NCBI GenBank assembly: GCA_035528375.1
Contig: DATKYS010000072.1
Span: forward strand, 15,859 to 79,858
Direction: 5' to 3'
DNA: 64,000 bases
Source of the DNA: a bacterium
GTDB taxonomy: Bacteria; RBG-13-66-14
The notes under the pieces are model-generated. The model saw only the letters and a list, made by a program, of their open reading frames with translations, searched no databases and was not told the DNA's origin. Of the stretch, positions 32,650 to 57,590 are shown piece after piece. Position 1 is the first letter of the stretch. The number at the start of each line of letters is the position of its first letter. Position numbers and translations under genes: made by a program.

Positions 32650-32713
32650 TCGTGGAAAGACCTGTTAATTAGTAGTGTTACAAAGAAGGCGAAAGTTTTT
32701 TTTGTATTTATAT

Positions 32714-32742
32714 TTGACAGAAAGCCCTTTTATCTCTAAACT
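32714..32742 (+). promoter_or_regulatory. Strong sigma-70-type promoter of the CsgG-FlgT-barrel gene
   Basis: Perfect TTGACA, 17-base spacer, TAAACT, set in AT-rich DNA (32685-32765). Start expected near 32749, leader of about 28 bases with GGAGGG before the GTG. Confidence 0.75.
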
Positions 32743-32776
32743 TACTGTGATTTATAACTTTTCTTACGGAGGGTAT

Positions 32777-34018
32777 GTGCGCAGGGTACTGATTTTCGTG
32801 TTTCTACTCGCTGCCGGCTCACTGGGTGCGGAGAAGATAAAGCTCGCCTTCATCGGTCTGGATGCTGCGGGAGTCAGTGAGTCCGCGGCGGCGGGGATTG
32901 CGGATGCAATCCTGGATACCCTGATCAATACCCACCGTTTCGACGTGGTCGAACGGGAAAAGCTTGCGGCCATACTCGAGGAGCAGGCCCTGACATTATC
33001 GGGGTGCACGTCAACCGAGTGCATCGTGGAGGTCGGCCAGTTGGCCGGTGCCGATAAAGTCCTCGTCGGAAAGGTTTCCCAGGTGGGAAGCATCTACACC
33101 TTAACCTTGCGTTTAGCGGACATAACAACCGGTAAATTAGAATATTCGGACTCCGCCGATGCCATAAACGTGGAATATCTTGTTAACGAAGGGCGTTCGA
33201 TCGTGCAACGGTTCGCCGACAGCATCCCGGTGACGGGTAAGGTTATCGGCGTGGATAAAGGCATAATAAAGGTGAATCTGGGTACGCAGGAAAACCTGAG
33301 CCCAGGCGATGAGCTCGAGGTTTACCGGATTGGCGAAGAATACTACGACCCGGAAACGGGTTTACTCGTAGGGCATGACATTATCGAATTGGGTAAGGCG
33401 GTTGTCTCCCGCGTTATTGAAGCGGCCTTATCGGAAGCCAAGCTGAGGGGGGAATTCGAAGTCACGACCGGCGACAGGGTACGTTTAGCTGGAATCACCA
33501 GTACAAGCGGATATAGACGTGAAATTACATTAGATGAATTCCAAATCCATCTCGGCGGGGGATACCCCTTTATCGGAGATTTCTCCATCGCCTACTCCAG
33601 TCGGGGAGAAGGCTACTTCGGTCTGTCGGTGGCCACTATATTAATGGATAAGGGTATCGGCTTGGACCCTGACAAGTACGTCGCGCGGTCGGGATCACCG
33701 ATGCTTACACTGGACTACGATTTCTATTTCGGCCGTATCTTTCGGGTGTATGCAGGTCTCGGAGCTGGAATATTCATCAGATTCGGCGAAGACGACTCCA
33801 CGTTACTCTTCATAGGCAAGGCAAAGGCTGGTGTGGAGTACCGTTTCTCTTCCTGGTTGGGGGTAAGCATCGGTGCCGATTACTACCCATTCATCGGCAG
33901 CCCCGGGCAGCCACAGATAACCAGCCCGGGCGGCACGGGCAGCACGGACAATCAAAGTGGGATTATATGGTTCGGAAAGGCTCTTAACACGCGGATCGGC
34001 GTCGAGTTCTACCTCTAA
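32777..34018 (+). CDS. CsgG-like / FlgT C-terminal-like / beta-barrel composite envelope protein
   Basis: 413 residues. Signal peptide (VRRVLIFVFLLAAGSLGAE). Residues ~20-165 match a CsgG-type domain (AAAGIADAILDTLINTHRFDVVEREKL, then LAGADKVLVGKVSQVG). Residues ~170-250 match the FlgT C-terminal domain (GKVIGVDKGIIKVNLG, SPGDELEVYRIGEE). From ~265 to the end the sequence looks like an eight-stranded outer-membrane barrel ending in RIGVEFYL, a proper barrel C-terminus. The order suggests a periplasmic sensor or assembly factor tied to its own barrel. GTG start; base composition is lower in GC than neighbours. Confidence 0.72.
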   Translation: MRRVLIFVFLLAAGSLGAEKIKLAFIGLDAAGVSESAAAGIADAILDTLINTHRFDVVEREKLAAILEEQALTLSGCTSTECIVEVGQLAGADKVLVGKVSQVGSIYTLTLRLADITTGKLEYSDSADAINVEYLVNEGRSIVQRFADSIPVTGKVIGVDKGIIKVNLGTQENLSPGDELEVYRIGEEYYDPETGLLVGHDIIELGKAVVSRVIEAALSEAKLRGEFEVTTGDRVRLAGITSTSGYRREITLDEFQIHLGGGYPFIGDFSIAYSSRGEGYFGLSVATILMDKGIGLDPDKYVARSGSPMLTLDYDFYFGRIFRVYAGLGAGIFIRFGEDDSTLLFIGKAKAGVEYRFSSWLGVSIGADYYPFIGSPGQPQITSPGGTGSTDNQSGIIWFGKALNTRIGVEFYL

Positions 34019-50799: not shown

Positions 50800-50874
50800 T
50801 GGAGCGGGGTACCGGGATCGAACCGGCGACGTTCAGCTTGGGAAGCTGACATTCTACCGCTGAATTAACCCCGC
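50800..50874 (-). tRNA. tRNA-Gly (anticodon CCC)
   Basis: A complete cloverleaf on the minus strand: acceptor GCGGGGT pairing with ACCCCGC, D-arm with AGCGGTA loop, anticodon stem TCAGC/GCTGA with loop TTCCCAA (anticodon CCC), and T-arm GCCGG-TTCGATC-CCGGT. The discriminator base U and the CCA end are encoded. 75 bases. It has a good promoter and may be co-transcribed with the UbiA gene. Confidence 0.93.
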
Positions 50875-50929: not shown

Positions 50930-50958
50930 TTGTAATAGACACCGGTTCCTGCTATACT
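50930..50958 (+). promoter_or_regulatory. Promoter of the 51-57 kb envelope cluster
   Basis: TTGTAA, a 17-base spacer ending TGC, TATACT. Start near 50965, so the first gene has a ~95-base leader. No other clear promoter is seen before 57.6 kb, so the six genes may form one operon. Confidence 0.65.
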
Positions 50959-51058: not shown

Positions 51059-51871
51059 ATGAAGAAGCTTTTAGCGCTAGTGGTGCTTATCCCGGTCCTG
51101 GTTCTTGCGCAGGATTGGGCCGGCGTCCAGCGCTCGACCTACGACCCGCAGACCCCCCAGGACAGGGGGGGCGTGGGCATCACGAACTGGGGCGAGCGGA
51201 CCATTTCGGCCACCGGCATCGGCGTCGTCTCCGACAACCCGGTCAACGCCGCCCGGGAACGCGCCAACGCCATGCGCGCCGCCAAGATAGTCGCCCTGCG
51301 CGACCTCCTCGAGCAGGTCAAGGGTGTTCAGATCAACTCCACCACCACCATCCAGAACTTCGAGACGGTGGACGACACCATCATCGCCCGCGTCTCCGGC
51401 GTCGTTCAGGGCGCGTACGAGGTGGGCAGCCCCCGCTACATGAGCGACGGCTCCATCGAGCGCACCTTCGCCATCAGCCTGGACGGTCAACTGGCCGACG
51501 CCGTCCTGACCGAAAACTACAACACCACGGTCCACCCCGGCGGCAGCGACAACACCGGCCTGATCATTGACGCATCGGGTCTGGGCGTCATGCCCGCCAT
51601 GAGCCCGAAAATCGTCAACCAGTCCGGCGATGTGCTCTACGGACCGATGAACGTGAGCCGCGATTACGCCGTATCCGTGGGCATCGTGGGCTACGCGCGC
51701 AGTGTGGACGAGGCCCGGGGCGGCGACCGCGTCGGGACCAATCCCATGGTCATCCGGGCGGTGAGCGTCACCGGCGCCGCCAAGTGCGACATCATCGTCA
51801 GCAACCCCGACGGCTCGAAGATTCCCTACGTGAGCGGCATCTCCGACTGCCGGGTGACGATCGTCCTTTAA
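51059..51871 (+). CDS. LPP20-like envelope protein
   Basis: 270 residues. Signal peptide MKKLLALVVLIPVLVLAQ (no lipobox). A short linker leads to an LPP20/FlgP-type domain: ERTISATGIGVVSDNPVNAARERANAMRAAKIVALRDLLEQV (a typical alternation of strand and Ala/Arg-rich helix, quoted in part) and later SPRYMSDGSIERTFAISLDG. The remaining ~100 residues are beta-rich with one Cys pair. In flagellated bacteria LPP20 proteins form rings around the basal body; here no flagellar gene is present. The ATG is preceded by AGGAGGGTAG. First gene of the cluster. Confidence 0.7.
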   Translation: MKKLLALVVLIPVLVLAQDWAGVQRSTYDPQTPQDRGGVGITNWGERTISATGIGVVSDNPVNAARERANAMRAAKIVALRDLLEQVKGVQINSTTTIQNFETVDDTIIARVSGVVQGAYEVGSPRYMSDGSIERTFAISLDGQLADAVLTENYNTTVHPGGSDNTGLIIDASGLGVMPAMSPKIVNQSGDVLYGPMNVSRDYAVSVGIVGYARSVDEARGGDRVGTNPMVIRAVSVTGAAKCDIIVSNPDGSKIPYVSGISDCRVTIVL

Positions 51872-51897
51872 GCAACTTTTCAGACGAAGGGATTACG

Positions 51898-53034
51898 ATG
51901 AAAAAGCTACTTATAGGGTTTGCCATCATCGCCCTGGTCTTATTCTCGGCGGGTTGCAAGAAGGGCGAAACCGCCATGGACACGCCGGAAACCCACGTGG
52001 CGGCCGGTCACAAATACCTGGAGAACCGCCAGTACGACGCCGCCATCGCCGCCTTCGAGAGGGCCATAGACCTCGACCACCGCTGCGCCTCCGCCTACTC
52101 CGGCATCGGCTACGTTTACCTGCGCCAGAGCGAGGACGCCACCGGCGAGACCCGCAAGGGGCTCTTGGACGACGCGGTGGACATGTTCGAGAAGGCGATG
52201 GGGCTCGACGTGGACGACATCTACGGCAAAATCGGCAAGGCCCGCGTCATGATAGAGCGGGGCGACGCCCGCAACGCGCGCCTACTGGCCAAGGCCGCCG
52301 CCCAGGAGGACAAGGAGAACATCGAGGGCGCGCTCTGGTGGGGCATCGCCGCCGGATGCGTCGGCGACTGGGACGAGGCCAATTACGCCCTGACCCGAGC
52401 CCTCGAGCTCGACCCGACGAACCCCGAGGTCCAGGATGCCTGGGACCGCCTCGCCGTGGCCAAGCGGCTGATGCAGGGCGTGGACGACCAGAATTACCGG
52501 GCCATCGCTTTCAACTACCGTATCGGCCGCGCCGACGCGGCGGCCCTCTTCGCCCGCGAGCTCGACCTGTCGCGCCTGGAGCGCCGGTCGGTGACGAGCT
52601 ACGGCGGCCCCGTTTTCGTCGGCCCCGGTGAGCCCGAAACCGGCGCCACCTCTTACTACGCCACCGACATCGCCGAGCACTGGGCCCTGCCCGAGATAAA
52701 CCTCTGCATCGAAACCGGCCTCATGGAGCCCTACCCCGACGGCAGCTTCCTGCCCGACGCCAAGCTGAACCGCTCCGAGTTCGCCATGCTGGCCGCCAAG
52801 GTGCTGTCCCTGACCACGGGCGACCCCGACCTCATGACCCGGGGCATAACCGGCGATAGCATCTTCAAGGACGTACGGGCGGACAACTTCGCCTACGGCG
52901 CCATCGTCGCCTGCACCAGCCGGGGGATTCTGGCCGGCGACCCCGACGGCTTCTTCCGGCCGCTGGACTTCATCACCGGGACCGACGCCGTGAGCGCCGT
53001 CCGCACCGTAGAGACCATCCTCGCCCACTACTAG
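51898..53034 (+). CDS. TPR and S-layer-homology (SLH) lipoprotein
   Basis: 378 residues. Lipoprotein signal MKKLLIGFAIIALVLFSAGC. Residues ~35-215 hold four or so TPRs (HKYLENRQYDAAIAAFERAI, ALTRALELDPTNPEV). Residues ~255-375 hold two SLH-type repeats (YATDIAEHWALPEINLCIETGLMEPYPDG, FKDVRADNFAYGAIVACTSRGILAGDPDG, quoted in part). SLH domains bind cell-wall polymers, so the protein could link a membrane to peptidoglycan. Starts 26 bases after the LPP20 gene. Confidence 0.78.
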   Translation: MKKLLIGFAIIALVLFSAGCKKGETAMDTPETHVAAGHKYLENRQYDAAIAAFERAIDLDHRCASAYSGIGYVYLRQSEDATGETRKGLLDDAVDMFEKAMGLDVDDIYGKIGKARVMIERGDARNARLLAKAAAQEDKENIEGALWWGIAAGCVGDWDEANYALTRALELDPTNPEVQDAWDRLAVAKRLMQGVDDQNYRAIAFNYRIGRADAAALFARELDLSRLERRSVTSYGGPVFVGPGEPETGATSYYATDIAEHWALPEINLCIETGLMEPYPDGSFLPDAKLNRSEFAMLAAKVLSLTTGDPDLMTRGITGDSIFKDVRADNFAYGAIVACTSRGILAGDPDGFFRPLDFITGTDAVSAVRTVETILAHY

Positions 53035-53116
53035 GATTTTCGGGGGGCGGCCCGGTCGCCCCCTTAGACGTTTTAACCTGGGGGCGGACGCGCCGCCCAA
53101 CGGCCGAGGAGTTACG

Positions 53117-54343
53117 ATGCGTACATTCCCCCTCATCTTGCTCGTAGGGGTTCTCTGCCTGGTCGGAGTGGTCCAGGCCCAGGACACCATCACCGTCCGG
53201 AGCACCGGCCTCGGCGTCATCTACTCGGGCGACATCGCCAAGGCCCGCGACGACGCCGTCAAGGACGCCCTCCGGAACGCCGTCGAGCAGCAGACCGGCA
53301 TGTTTCTGGACTCACAGACCATGGTGGAGATGTTCTCGACCCTGGAGGACTCCATCTACGCCCGAGCCACCGCCTACGTCCTCGGATACAATATCATCAG
53401 CGAGGGCTACGGCTCCTTCGAGAACTCCTACGAGGTCGAGGTGGAGTGCACCATCGCGCGTAGCATGCTCCAGGCCAAGCTCGACGATCTCGACGTGCGG
53501 ACCGTGACGGCCCTCATCGGCAACCCGCGGATAATGATCATCATCGAGGAGGAGAACATGCTGGAGGGCTACCACTACTACTGGTACGACTCCCTGGACA
53601 TGGGCACCACCGAGATGACGCTGCAGGAGATTTTCCTCGACAAGGATTTCCCGCTCGTGGACGCGCAGCAGGCGCGTCGCAACATTGACCGCGACATGGT
53701 CAAGGCCGCCCTCACCGGCGACCCCCTGGCCGCCGCCGAAATCGGCCTCCAGTACGGCGCCGAGTACGTGCTCACCGGGAAGGCCGTGGTCAAGGGTTCC
53801 GACATCGTGGCATACGGCGTCACCGCCGGGTCGGGGATGAAGTCCTACCAGGCCACCTGCAACATCAAGGTCTACGAGACCGACACCGCTACGCTGATCG
53901 CCTCCACCTCCAAGTCCGACAAGGCGGCCCATACCGACGACCTGGCCGGCGGCAACGAGGCGCTGCGCAAGGCGGCCAAGGCCGCTTCGGACGTCGTCAT
54001 CGGCCAGATCCTCAAGGACTGGTCCCGCCGCGCGGCCACCGGCTCCACGGTCCAGATGACCGTCTACAACGCCGACAACGCCACGCTGACCAAGCTCCAG
54101 ACCTGGCTCCGCGAGAGCATCCGCGGCGTGGAGAACATCATCGTGCGCAGCCACTTCGGCCTCACGGCCAAGCTGGAGATAGCCTCTGACTACGACGCGG
54201 CCCAGATCGCCAAGGAGATAAACTACAAGCCCCGCGCCGAGGGCGATTTCGAGGTCATCGTTTACGGTCAGACGCGCAACACGGTTGACATCGCCATCGC
54301 CCCCAAGGGCGAGACGCCGCCCAAAGAGGGCAGCACGGAATAA
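53117..54343 (+). CDS. FlgT-like envelope protein
   Basis: 408 residues with a signal peptide (MRTFPLILLVGVLCLVGVVQAQ). Residues ~24-115 fit the FlgT N-terminal/LPP20-like domain (VRSTGLGVIYSGDIAKARDDAVKDALRNAVEQQTG, then YVLGYNIISEGYG). Residues ~130-305 resemble a FlgT-middle/CsgG-like domain (LIGNPRIMIIIEEEN, GAEYVLTGKAVVKG). The C-terminal ~95 residues (VYNADNATLTKLQTWLRESIRGVENIIVRSHFG) look like a repeat of a ferredoxin-like alpha/beta domain. In Vibrio FlgT belongs to the H-ring of the flagellar motor; no flagellar gene is here. Confidence 0.7.
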   Translation: MRTFPLILLVGVLCLVGVVQAQDTITVRSTGLGVIYSGDIAKARDDAVKDALRNAVEQQTGMFLDSQTMVEMFSTLEDSIYARATAYVLGYNIISEGYGSFENSYEVEVECTIARSMLQAKLDDLDVRTVTALIGNPRIMIIIEEENMLEGYHYYWYDSLDMGTTEMTLQEIFLDKDFPLVDAQQARRNIDRDMVKAALTGDPLAAAEIGLQYGAEYVLTGKAVVKGSDIVAYGVTAGSGMKSYQATCNIKVYETDTATLIASTSKSDKAAHTDDLAGGNEALRKAAKAASDVVIGQILKDWSRRAATGSTVQMTVYNADNATLTKLQTWLRESIRGVENIIVRSHFGLTAKLEIASDYDAAQIAKEINYKPRAEGDFEVIVYGQTRNTVDIAIAPKGETPPKEGSTE

Positions 54344-54432
54344 TGCGGACGGCTTCACCGTGCTGACCGAGAGAGTTCCGTAACGGCGAAGCCCTTACGT
54401 GTAACCTTTTCAACTAGGCCTGGAGGCTTTCC

Positions 54433-55317
54433 ATGCGTAAAATCGTTCTCGCGACCCTGGTATTCGTGCTCAGCCTGGCCGTCGCCTCCTCCGCCATGGA
54501 CATGCGCAAGCGCATCGCCATCTCCGAGCTGGAGGACAAGGCCGGCAGCTCCTACAACGTGGGAACCGGACTGTCCGACGTGCTGGCCACCGCCCTGGTC
54601 AACTGCGGCAAGTTCCAGGTCTTCGAGCGGGAGCAGCTGGCCGCGATCATGAAGGAGCAGGCCCTGGGCACCACCGGCCTGGTGACCCCCCAGACCGCCC
54701 CGGAGATCGGCAAGCTCCTCGGCGTGCAGGCCATCGTCTACGGCGCGGTCACCGAGTTCTCCACCCAGAAGGACGAGGTCGGCCTCGGCACCTTCATGGG
54801 CGGCATCGGCTTCTCCCGCGTTACGGCCCGCGTCGGCCTCAACATCCGCATCATAGACACCGTCACCGGCGAGATCATCTTCAGCCACGAGGCCACCGGT
54901 GAGGAATCGGAGACCGGCGGCGTCCTGATGGTCCCCGGCATGATCATCGGCAAGGGCTCCGATTGGGACAACACCCTGGAGGGCAAGGCCGCCCGGCAGG
55001 CCATTGACGAAATCGTCAATGCCATCATCATCAAGCTCAAGGACGTACCCTGGACCGGAGCCGTGGTCAAGGCCGACGACGAGAAAGTCTACATCAACGC
55101 CGGCATGGACTCCGGCATCGAGACCGGCATGGAGTTCCGCATCTACCAGAAAGGCGAGGACCTCATAGACCCCGTCACCGGCATCTCCCTGGGCGCCGAG
55201 GAAACCCTCATCGGTACCGTGCAGGTGATGGAAGTCAAGGAGAAATACGCCATATGCCGGGCCGTGGCCGGTGGCGGTTTCTCCGCCCAGGACATCGTCC
55301 GGGAGAATACGTTCTGA
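54433..55317 (+). CDS. CsgG-like protein with FlgT C-terminal domain (paralogue 1)
   Basis: 294 residues. Signal peptide MRKIVLATLVFVLSLAVASSA. The CsgG domain covers ~25-190: RIAISELEDKAGSS, LSDVLATALVNCGKFQVFEREQL, GKLLGVQAIVYGAVTEFS. The C-terminal ~95 residues are an FlgT-C-like domain (GAVVKADDEKVYINAGMDSGIETGMEFRIYQKG). It aligns with the next gene (TLEGKAARQAIDEI / TLEGRASLGAVDKL and PWTG / PWSG), so the two arose by duplication. CsgG in curli systems forms a secretion pore, but CsgA, B, E or F are not visible nearby. CTGGAGGC precedes the ATG. Confidence 0.78.
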   Translation: MRKIVLATLVFVLSLAVASSAMDMRKRIAISELEDKAGSSYNVGTGLSDVLATALVNCGKFQVFEREQLAAIMKEQALGTTGLVTPQTAPEIGKLLGVQAIVYGAVTEFSTQKDEVGLGTFMGGIGFSRVTARVGLNIRIIDTVTGEIIFSHEATGEESETGGVLMVPGMIIGKGSDWDNTLEGKAARQAIDEIVNAIIIKLKDVPWTGAVVKADDEKVYINAGMDSGIETGMEFRIYQKGEDLIDPVTGISLGAEETLIGTVQVMEVKEKYAICRAVAGGGFSAQDIVRENTF

Positions 55318-55330
55318 CCCGATCCTTTGA

Positions 55331-56260
55331 ATGACCACGGGGCGGGCCGGGCGTATCCCTCCCGCCCCGGCTTTACGGCCGGAAAATCGGACTCGACCGA
55401 CGCGAAGATTTTACGGAACAATCGCGCTCCTCTCTCTGGCGGGCTGCCTCTTCACCCAGACCGCCTCCGCGCCGACGATAGACCGGCTCCTTGTGGTTGA
55501 TCTGCGGCCCGGGCTCGAGGTGACCGAGGAGCAGGCCCGCGGCCTGGAGGAGATGCTCGCCCAAAGGCTCGGCGAGCTGCCCGGGATTCTCCCACTGACA
55601 CGGAGGGACCTGGTCGTCGAGCTCGGAGGGACCGTCGCCCTGGGGACGGAATACCGGGAACCGGGCTCCCTGGAGCGACCGGTGCTCACCCTCCCGGCTC
55701 AACTGCGGGAGTTGGGCGTCCAGATATACCTGATCGGCGAGGTTCACAACTTCGGGCTCTCGGAGAGTTTTGGGGAGGTGGGGTTCCGCCGGGACGAGGC
55801 TGACGTCAGTCTCGAAATCCGGCTCTACCTGGCGCCCACCGGCGAGTTCATCACCGAAACACAGACCGAGCAGCTCCTCGCCCAGAGCAACACGAATCGC
55901 TGGCACCCCGGTATGGTCATCGGACCCAACGAGGAGTTCCTGGATACACTCGAGGGGCGTGCCTCCCTGGGAGCCGTGGACAAGCTGGCGGAGGACCTTG
56001 CACCAGCCTTCGAAAAGACACCCTGGTCGGGTTGGATAACCGATGTGGAAGGGGACAGGGTCATCCTTCCGATTGGCTTCGAGGAAAACGCCGCTCCGGG
56101 CGACATCTTCGTCATCTACACCCCCGCGAACGTCCGGGGGGAGCGGGGAAGCCGGATAGGCAGCGTGAGGATCGAGACCGTGGGACCGGGTGAGTCGCTG
56201 GCCGAGCCCATCTCCGGCGGCGGATTCCAGCCCGGACAACTGGCCGTGCAGGAACTGTAG
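55331..56260 (+). CDS. CsgG-like lipoprotein with FlgT C-terminal domain (paralogue 2)
   Basis: 309 residues. The lipobox is LSLAGC near residue 39, and the only available in-frame start (ATG 55331) leaves a long 27-residue basic n-region (RAGRIPPAPALRPENRTRPT), so export may be unusual or the start mis-set. The core resembles a diverged CsgG-type domain (LEEMLAQRLGELPGILPLTRRDLV), ending with an FlgT-C-like part (GWITDVEGDRVILPIGFEENAAPGDIFVIY) and a conserved terminal motif shared with the previous gene (SGGGFQPGQ / AGGGFSAQD). Follows it by 13 bases. Confidence 0.72.
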   Translation: MTTGRAGRIPPAPALRPENRTRPTRRFYGTIALLSLAGCLFTQTASAPTIDRLLVVDLRPGLEVTEEQARGLEEMLAQRLGELPGILPLTRRDLVVELGGTVALGTEYREPGSLERPVLTLPAQLRELGVQIYLIGEVHNFGLSESFGEVGFRRDEADVSLEIRLYLAPTGEFITETQTEQLLAQSNTNRWHPGMVIGPNEEFLDTLEGRASLGAVDKLAEDLAPAFEKTPWSGWITDVEGDRVILPIGFEENAAPGDIFVIYTPANVRGERGSRIGSVRIETVGPGESLAEPISGGGFQPGQLAVQEL

Positions 56261-56276
56261 CGGCGGGGGTTACAAG

Positions 56277-57026
56277 ATGATCAAACGGGCTTTTATACTC
56301 CTCTGCGCGACCCTCTTGACCGCCGCCCTGGCCGGGGCGGAGGTGACCTACATGGTGGGGAGCGTGAGCGTCTTCCGCGGGGGCGAGAGCTTCTCGGCCT
56401 CCCTCGGATCGCGCCTCAAGGGCGGGGACATCGTCCATACCGGGGACCGATCCCGAACGGAGATAGCCTTCGACGACGGCTCCCTCGTCCGCCTCTCGTC
56501 AAACTCCGATCTGACCATCGAGCGGTCGTCCACCAGCGGGCTGGCCACCAGCACGGTTGTCTCCTCCACGGGCGGCAGGCTGTGGTCCACCGTTACCCCC
56601 TTCACCGACCCCGCGAGCAACTACGTCGTCAAGACGCCGACGGCCACCGCGGCGTGCCGGGGGACCGTCTTCCGCACCGACGTTTACCCCGACACCTCGA
56701 CCCTTCTGCGCGTTTATGACGGCAGCGTCGAGCTGTGGAATCCCATGGCCGCCATCGAGGGCCCCATGTTCTGGGAGACCGAGGGTACCGAAGGCGAGGG
56801 GGAGTCCGGTGAGCGGTACGAGGTCGTCGGCCCGCACGAGGTCTCGGGACCTCACGAGGTGTCCGAAGAGCAGTGGACCCAGGTAATTCTGGGTGGGATG
56901 CAGCAGCTCTACATAGCGCCCGACGGCTCCGTGGCCGCCTCCGGGGAGTTCTCACCCGAGGACGAGCTGGAGCTGGACGAGTGGGTCACCTGGAACCATG
57001 AGCGCGACGCCGAGTTGGGCCGGTAA
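56277..57026 (+). CDS. FecR-domain protein
   Basis: 249 residues with a signal peptide (MIKRAFILLCATLLTAALAGAE). The FecR domain covers ~25-165: VTYMVGSVSVFRGGESFSASLGSRLKGGDIVHTGDRSRTEIAFDDGSLVRLSSNSDL (shown as fragments), then TPTATAACRGTVFRTDV. It is followed by a duplicated octapeptide-like motif (GPHEVSGPHEVS) and an acidic tail. FecR domains in the periplasm often bind glycans or regulate through sigma factors; no sigma factor gene is here. Its last ~15 bases lie in a 22-base direct repeat found again at 57101. Last gene of the cluster. Confidence 0.75.
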   Translation: MIKRAFILLCATLLTAALAGAEVTYMVGSVSVFRGGESFSASLGSRLKGGDIVHTGDRSRTEIAFDDGSLVRLSSNSDLTIERSSTSGLATSTVVSSTGGRLWSTVTPFTDPASNYVVKTPTATAACRGTVFRTDVYPDTSTLLRVYDGSVELWNPMAAIEGPMFWETEGTEGEGESGERYEVVGPHEVSGPHEVSEEQWTQVILGGMQQLYIAPDGSVAASGEFSPEDELELDEWVTWNHERDAELGR

Positions 57027-57590
57027 AGAGGGCCAACCATCATCCGGGCCACACGTTGGGCCGTTAAGGAAGACCGCCGTTATCAGAGCCGCGTGTCTCA
57101 GCCTGGGCCGGTAAAGAGGGCCAACCGTCCCCGGACCGTTTATTTCAATATGGGTTGGTCTGAGCCGGCCGGTTTTTGGTCGTCGTGCACATAAGTAGGG
57201 CGGGGATTTTAATCCCCGTCGTTTTTTTAAGGCAGCCTCCACCCCAAGGTGCGCTGACGTAGGGCGGCCCCTCTGCGGGCCGCCGCGGGCCGACCTAAAC
57301 GGCGCGCCGTGGTCGGCCCCTACGACGTTTAAAGAAACGGCCAACGATTCAGCGTAGGGGCGGGTGTCCACACCCGCCCGTTCGTTAATTCACCGCCGCG
57401 CTGCAAGATGTAGGGCGGGGGCTCCGTACCCTGCCCGGTTAACTTTTTAATATCCGACACTCACCCTAACCTTTAGGCGCACATCTCCCTAAAAGGGAGA
57501 GGGAAATATCGGGCCGACCTGAAGGTCGGCCCCTACGAGGGTTACGCGTGATCCACGCCTATCTGGTCGGGTCGGGTCCGAAACGGATGT
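57012..57590. repeat. Intergenic repeat field, no genes
   Basis: About 560 non-coding bases. A 22-base direct repeat (GGGCCGGTAAAGAGGGCCAA) occurs at 57017-57036 and at 57104-57123. Then come a core-less GGCGGGGATTTT...AATCCCC element (about 57197-57230), a GGGCGGCCCCTCTGCGGGCCGCC palindrome (57259-57284), a GGCCGACC...GGTCGGCCCC element (57285-57322), a GGGCGGGTGTCCACACCCGCC palindrome (57353-57381), a degenerate CCCTCAC/GGGAGAGGG arm pair (57460-57505) and a GGGCCGACCTGAAGGTCGGCCC palindrome (57510-57535). Confidence 0.8.

Follow-up and report, generated by a model that had tools for sequence, protein, structure and literature searches.

A flagellum-independent six-gene envelope cluster with FlgP/FlgT-, CsgG-, SLH- and FecR-type proteins in Candidatus Coatesbacteria, a candidate periplasmic collar

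We describe here a cluster of six consecutive genes, all on the forward strand (51059-57026), in a 64,000-nucleotide window that corresponds to positions 15859-79858 of contig C72 from a 2.63 Mb genome in 144 contigs; the host belongs to Candidatus Coatesbacteria, as do its named relatives L080-L082. Gene 1 (51059-51871) encodes a secreted protein predicted from profile and model matches to carry an LPP20/FlgP-type SHS2 domain (D1) followed by a Tp0624-type D2, and gene 2 (51898-53034) a predicted lipoprotein with TPR and then SLH motifs. The product of gene 3 (53117-54343) is FlgT-like, with a FlgT_N/LPP20-type domain, a TolB-N/CsgG-like middle domain and a third alpha-beta domain, while gene 4 (54433-55317) joins a CsgG domain to an FlgT_C domain, gene 5 (55331-56260, its start being putative) encodes a second predicted lipoprotein and diverged paralogue of gene 4, and gene 6 (56277-57026) a secreted FecR-domain protein that ends in a WVxWNxERD tail. 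Six co-directional open reading frames with export signals had been proposed in a preliminary description of this DNA, and both features are confirmed: a hydrophobic export signal is present at the N-terminus of each of the six proteins, and lipobox-like cysteines are found in the products of genes 2 (SAGC) and 5 (LAGC). The one clear promoter claimed in the same description is retained only in part. A promoter-like site at 50930-50958 of the forward strand (TTGTAA-17-TATACT with the TG of an extended -10) matches at 9/12 positions, but the scan returned 2 sites where 1.0 is expected in shuffled sequence, so the promoter is plausible yet unproven. A tRNA-Gly gene (50800-50874), divergent from the cluster, precedes this site, and a sequence scan places a terminator-like stem-loop followed by a T run at 57199-57220 of the forward strand.

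The six genes are kept together well beyond this genome, a point that the preliminary description had put forward as a check of its proposal. Within the host's own family the order is kept where contigs allow: all six genes are found in two genomes (G002, G003), and in four others (G001, G004, G005, G006) the order is seen together with contig breaks or additional CsgG copies. Ordered subsets recur across phyla, with 1-2-3-4-6 in L039/L065 (which share survey family f79 with G228, itself tied to Calditrichota by a contig match to record L066) and also in L068, a Calditrichaceae record, 1-2-3-6 in L041, L084 and L072, 1-2-3-6-CsgG in L042, 1-3-4-6-CsgG in L040 and L099, 1-2-3 in Raymondbacteria (L073), and 1-2-6 in the delta-proteobacterial Olavius Delta 4 symbiont (L069). 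Chitinivibrionales (L070) and SAR324 (L074) have genes 1-2 only; the set is rearranged in L064, L088, L090 and L091. As the collection scan used a 5-row alignment, the 18 named loci are biased to closer relatives. In a survey of 290 genomes, gene 1 lies within 10 kb of 26/30 strong gene 2 matches, where random placement would give about 0.2, and the other four matches start no more than 150 bases from the beginning of a contig; likewise, gene 3 is found within 10 kb of 15 of the 17 strong gene 6 matches. Part of both linkages arises by construction, since the gene 2 and gene 6 profiles were built partly from linked loci, but 16 genomes represented in neither the gene 1 nor the gene 2 profile still show the linkage of genes 1 and 2. 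An all-against-all comparison of 297 neighbouring proteins yielded no conserved seventh partner, the widest group reaching 5 loci. CHASE2 sensor proteins adjoin the cluster or gene 1 homologues in several lineages (L072 1-2151 and L077 12168-14084, with similar proteins in L076 and L090), and one of these neighbours has an adenylate/guanylate cyclase domain.

This conservation is independent of flagella and curli. None of the 14 Coatesbacteria searched, the host included, has FliG_C, with flagellated controls positive, and CsgF and curlin repeats were found in 0/20 cluster genomes, with the E. coli control positive. The claim that flagellar and curli genes are missing, made at first for the window, thus extends to the host genome as judged by FliG, CsgF and curlin, the markers searched. 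FliG is present in 11/30 gene 2-bearing genomes and in 113/260 others (Fisher p=0.56), and the gene 2-bearing families divide into eight with and eight without it, a statistic that ignores kinship beyond the family count; with no FliG association, we rejected a flagellar role as a general explanation. Nor do flagellar genes lie just beyond a longer version of the locus in relatives, the observation by which the preliminary description would have been contradicted. The nearest exception is genome G203 (L098 7029-15814), in which a lone gene 1 homologue is followed by an EngA-type GTPase gene, with fliF/fliG about 5 kb downstream; this is the only place seen with the gene 1 family near flagellar genes, and the rest of the set is missing there. 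Together with the homology to FlgP and FlgT, this lone homologue speaks for the cluster being a relic or component of the collar of a flagellar motor. We consider this reading highly improbable, given the lack of FliG association in the 290-genome survey and the good conservation of the genes in FliG-less lineages; moreover, we know of no flagellar counterpart for the TPR-SLH and FecR parts.

Genes 1 and 3 have matches among known ring components. Gene 1 alone has no Pfam match at E<1, but 13/23 members of its family match LPP20 (PF02169; best 1.1e-6). A gene 1 profile matches Treponema Tp0624 at 8.5e-19, profile positions 35-282 aligning on positions 9-262 of PDB entry 5jir over the whole D1-D2 unit, as well as Campylobacter FlgP at 7.8e-18 and Vibrio FlgP at 1.8e-11. 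The alignment of gene 1 with FlgP is gap-free across the hairpin segment that connects the SHS2 helix to the second strand, and an insert at this position correlates with ring formation in the family (PMC12222027). Structure models were made for genes 1 and 3. With the gene 1 model (predicted local distance difference test score, pLDDT, 72), Foldseek retrieves Tp0624 first (3.5e-11) and FlgP second (2e-4); the protein stops after D2, without the C-terminal OmpA-like D3 of full-length Tp0624. Gene 3 alone matches FlgT_N only at 0.006, while 18/25 members of its family do so at up to 5.6e-12, and its model (pLDDT 75) has Vibrio FlgT as top match, both in the LPHT-ring structure (8e-11) and in the crystal structure (3e-10). 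For its middle domain, alignments were obtained with TolB-N, CsgG, PelC and LpoB, the best being that with TolB. The structural alignments mostly span residues 117-309 and barely cover the C-terminal third domain. FlgT N- and M-like domains are assigned to gene 3, and gene 4 carries an FlgT_C domain. The first domains of genes 1 and 3 are homologous (profile comparison E 4e-18). Because template modelling (TM) scores in Foldseek are low (0.2-0.5 by query length), our structural claims are made at the level of domains. The LPP20 and FlgT labels given earlier to genes 1 and 3 are supported through their families and through the FlgP profile and FlgT model matches, gene 1 itself having no Pfam match and gene 3 a weak one.

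Gene 4 matches the Pfam CsgG model over its full length (4.6e-34) and FlgT_C at 2.5e-4, under the curated cut-off. Its profile finds CsgG (5e-9), LysM/FlgT_C proteins (7e-8, including TsaP at 1e-6) and LpoB (1e-4), and within its family LpoB matches occur in 15/16 members and TolB_N matches in 9. A sequence check and Pfam reveal neither a lipobox nor a LysM domain in gene 4. Gene 5 has no Pfam match and is recognized as a paralogue of gene 4 (9e-16); of the two CsgG-FlgT-C proteins initially described, one has a clear CsgG and a weak FlgT_C domain and the other is assigned by paralogy. The FecR label of gene 6 is borne out (1.9e-14), its tail being kept in most of 12 orthologues; no useful solved structure was matched by the FecR profile. 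Genes 6 and 3 further resemble the Leptospira proteins LipL45 (6e-16) and LipL46 (6.5e-14), respectively, both below the curated NCBIfam equivalog cut-offs (58.4 vs 350 and 51.4 vs 400 bits).

The full-length CsgG domain of gene 4 includes a segment that equals the first membrane hairpin of E. coli CsgG in length, as would suit a stand-alone secretion pore in which a CsgG-type channel exports a substrate and the other proteins act as periplasmic gate and anchor. We judge this unlikely: gene 4 carries no lipobox, the hairpin segment is shorter in gene 5 than in gene 4, no conserved substrate gene is found among the 297 neighbours compared, and at several loci genes 1-2 occur but CsgG does not. 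The distant L048 and L052 proteins likewise have a shortened hairpin segment. In sister genera, extra CsgG/FlgT_C-type paralogues lie within the cluster or next to it (L036 1-1809, L037 11679-13533, L035 4923-6262), the copy at L037 11679 carrying a lipobox. Outside the cluster, the window encodes a second, larger CsgG/LpoB-type protein of 447 amino acids (32675-34018, forward strand; CsgG 1.3e-10), and the protein encoded after it has only a weak DUF7253 match.

FlgT_C is shared with TsaP, the collar protein of the type IV pilus secretin, and the host genome does encode a secretin, the only one found (L104 3839-6518, contig C132), which has an AMIN domain and adjoins an LptE gene. The absence of a secretion ring accordingly holds for the window only. 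These two observations are what favors a TsaP-like accessory role at a type IV pilus or at another secretin; we nevertheless find this improbable, as the secretin and a separate, TsaP-like LysM+FlgT_C gene (contig C49, L053 1817-2923) are located on other contigs and no pilus genes occur at the loci examined, co-occurrence with pili lying outside the survey. The LysM+FlgT_C gene is itself found beside a divergent polysaccharide deacetylase gene rather than pilus genes, and genes for an Mrr-type restriction enzyme and for a DNA methylase follow a few genes away.

A possible connection to the cell wall is provided by gene 2, for which the TPR-SLH label is strong: TPR is combined with two SLH stretches, and the SLH match reaches 2.3e-18 and 66 bits against a Pfam cut-off of 20.8. 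A conserved RADxAALFxxEL preceding the two matches resembles the latter half of a degenerate first SLH motif. The lipobox cysteine is invariant across 15 orthologues, and no SLH protein other than that of gene 2 was found in the host genome.

As the set is kept together in distant phyla with or without flagella, it probably builds an envelope structure of its own that is still unseen. Its parts are supported as relatives of ring or pore builders (FlgP, FlgT, CsgG, TsaP), and the reading that we favor, with a probability of roughly 45%, is that of a flagellum-independent, outer-membrane-associated periplasmic collar or scaffold tied to the wall, its assembly into one complex, its ring or pore and its wall binding all being putative. 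In such a structure, the FlgP/FlgT-type SHS2 domains would let the products of genes 1 and 3 polymerize, giving a collar that resembles the H-ring of Vibrio or the basal disk of Campylobacter. A CsgG-type oligomer, lying either below or within the outer membrane, could be contributed by genes 4 and 5 and would join the collar via the FlgT_C domain. The gene 2 lipoprotein may hold the outer membrane through its lipid and the wall through its SLH motifs, and the FecR protein of gene 6 would be a further periplasmic partner. A bolder form of the proposal, in which a stand-alone FlgP/FlgT-type collar surrounds a CsgG-type channel and is tied to the wall by the SLH lipoprotein as a widespread new envelope machine, is possible but distinctly more tentative.

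Several points weigh against the collar. We infer oligomer formation from homologues, and LpoB, TolB, Lpp20 and Tip-alpha are CsgG- or LPP20-fold proteins that are monomeric or do not form rings. Confidence in the two models is medium (pLDDT 75 and 72), and their whole-chain TM-scores are low. Many lineages carry only some of the six members, so that not every part is needed. Finally, two OmpA-domain proteins in the host genome are possible tethers as well; gene 2 is thus not the only likely one, and we rejected it as the sole outer-membrane tether.

The chief rival is a ring-less set for envelope maintenance or sensing, in which FecR and the LpoB/TolB/LipL-like proteins would monitor or regulate how the wall and outer membrane grow, with a CHASE2 readout in some lineages. 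The LpoB and TolB_N matches in the gene 4 family, the best alignment of the gene 3 middle domain being with TolB, the CHASE2 proteins adjoining several loci and the likeness of genes 6 and 3 to LipL45 and LipL46 are all consistent with it. We hold it to be possible yet rather doubtful, since the FlgP hairpin segment is retained in gene 1, gene 3 taken as a whole matches FlgT first, and CHASE2 neighbours are confined to a minority of loci.

Returning to the collar, one close parallel is the H/T ring of the Vibrio polar flagellum (FlgO, FlgP, FlgT; PDB 8z5n, 3w1e), with which FlgP- and FlgT-type subunits and an expected periplasmic location on the outer-membrane side are shared. The cluster differs in standing without a flagellum, in the extra D2 on gene 1, in the placement of FlgT_C on a CsgG protein and in the addition of a TPR-SLH lipoprotein and FecR. 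The FlgP basal disk of Campylobacter (PDB 9hmf) has in common the SHS2 domain with its ring-linked hairpin segment, but gene 1 is longer, including D2, and no flagellar motor is involved. Treponema pallidum Tp0624 (PDB 5jir) matches gene 1 end to end over D1-D2. As in the curli CsgG channel, a full-length CsgG domain is present in gene 4, which in contrast adds FlgT_C, lacks a lipobox and occurs in a genome with neither CsgF nor curlin. TsaP shares FlgT_C, but the cluster has no LysM domain; the resemblance of genes 3 and 6 to LipL46 and LipL45 stays far under curated cut-offs.

All parts come from known families; their combination, spread and independence from flagella appear undescribed. A literature search returned no report naming any three of LPP20, FecR, CsgG, SLH and FlgT or naming both Tp0624 and FlgP, and this absence is weak evidence because bioRxiv preprints and most subscription journals were outside the search. 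Relatives of flagellar-collar, curli-pore and pilus-collar proteins form a single linked module in several phyla, whether flagella are present or not, which makes it possible to test whether collars of this kind originated as general envelope structures. The Tp0624 D1-D2 unit, reportedly published without a function, is now given a family context of FlgP-like SHS2 plus D2. If the bolder proposal were true, the flagellar FlgP/FlgT collar and the orphan D1-D2 unit would be parts of an older, flagellum-independent structural kit. The cluster also provides a defined gene set for expression, deletion and imaging.

A plasmid search with gene 3 gave no match, and none of the six genes matches a defence system in PADLOC. 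The gene-poor stretch 3' of the cluster (57018-57560) contains short similar stretches, such as GGGCCGGTAAAGAGGGCCAACC, which occurs twice.

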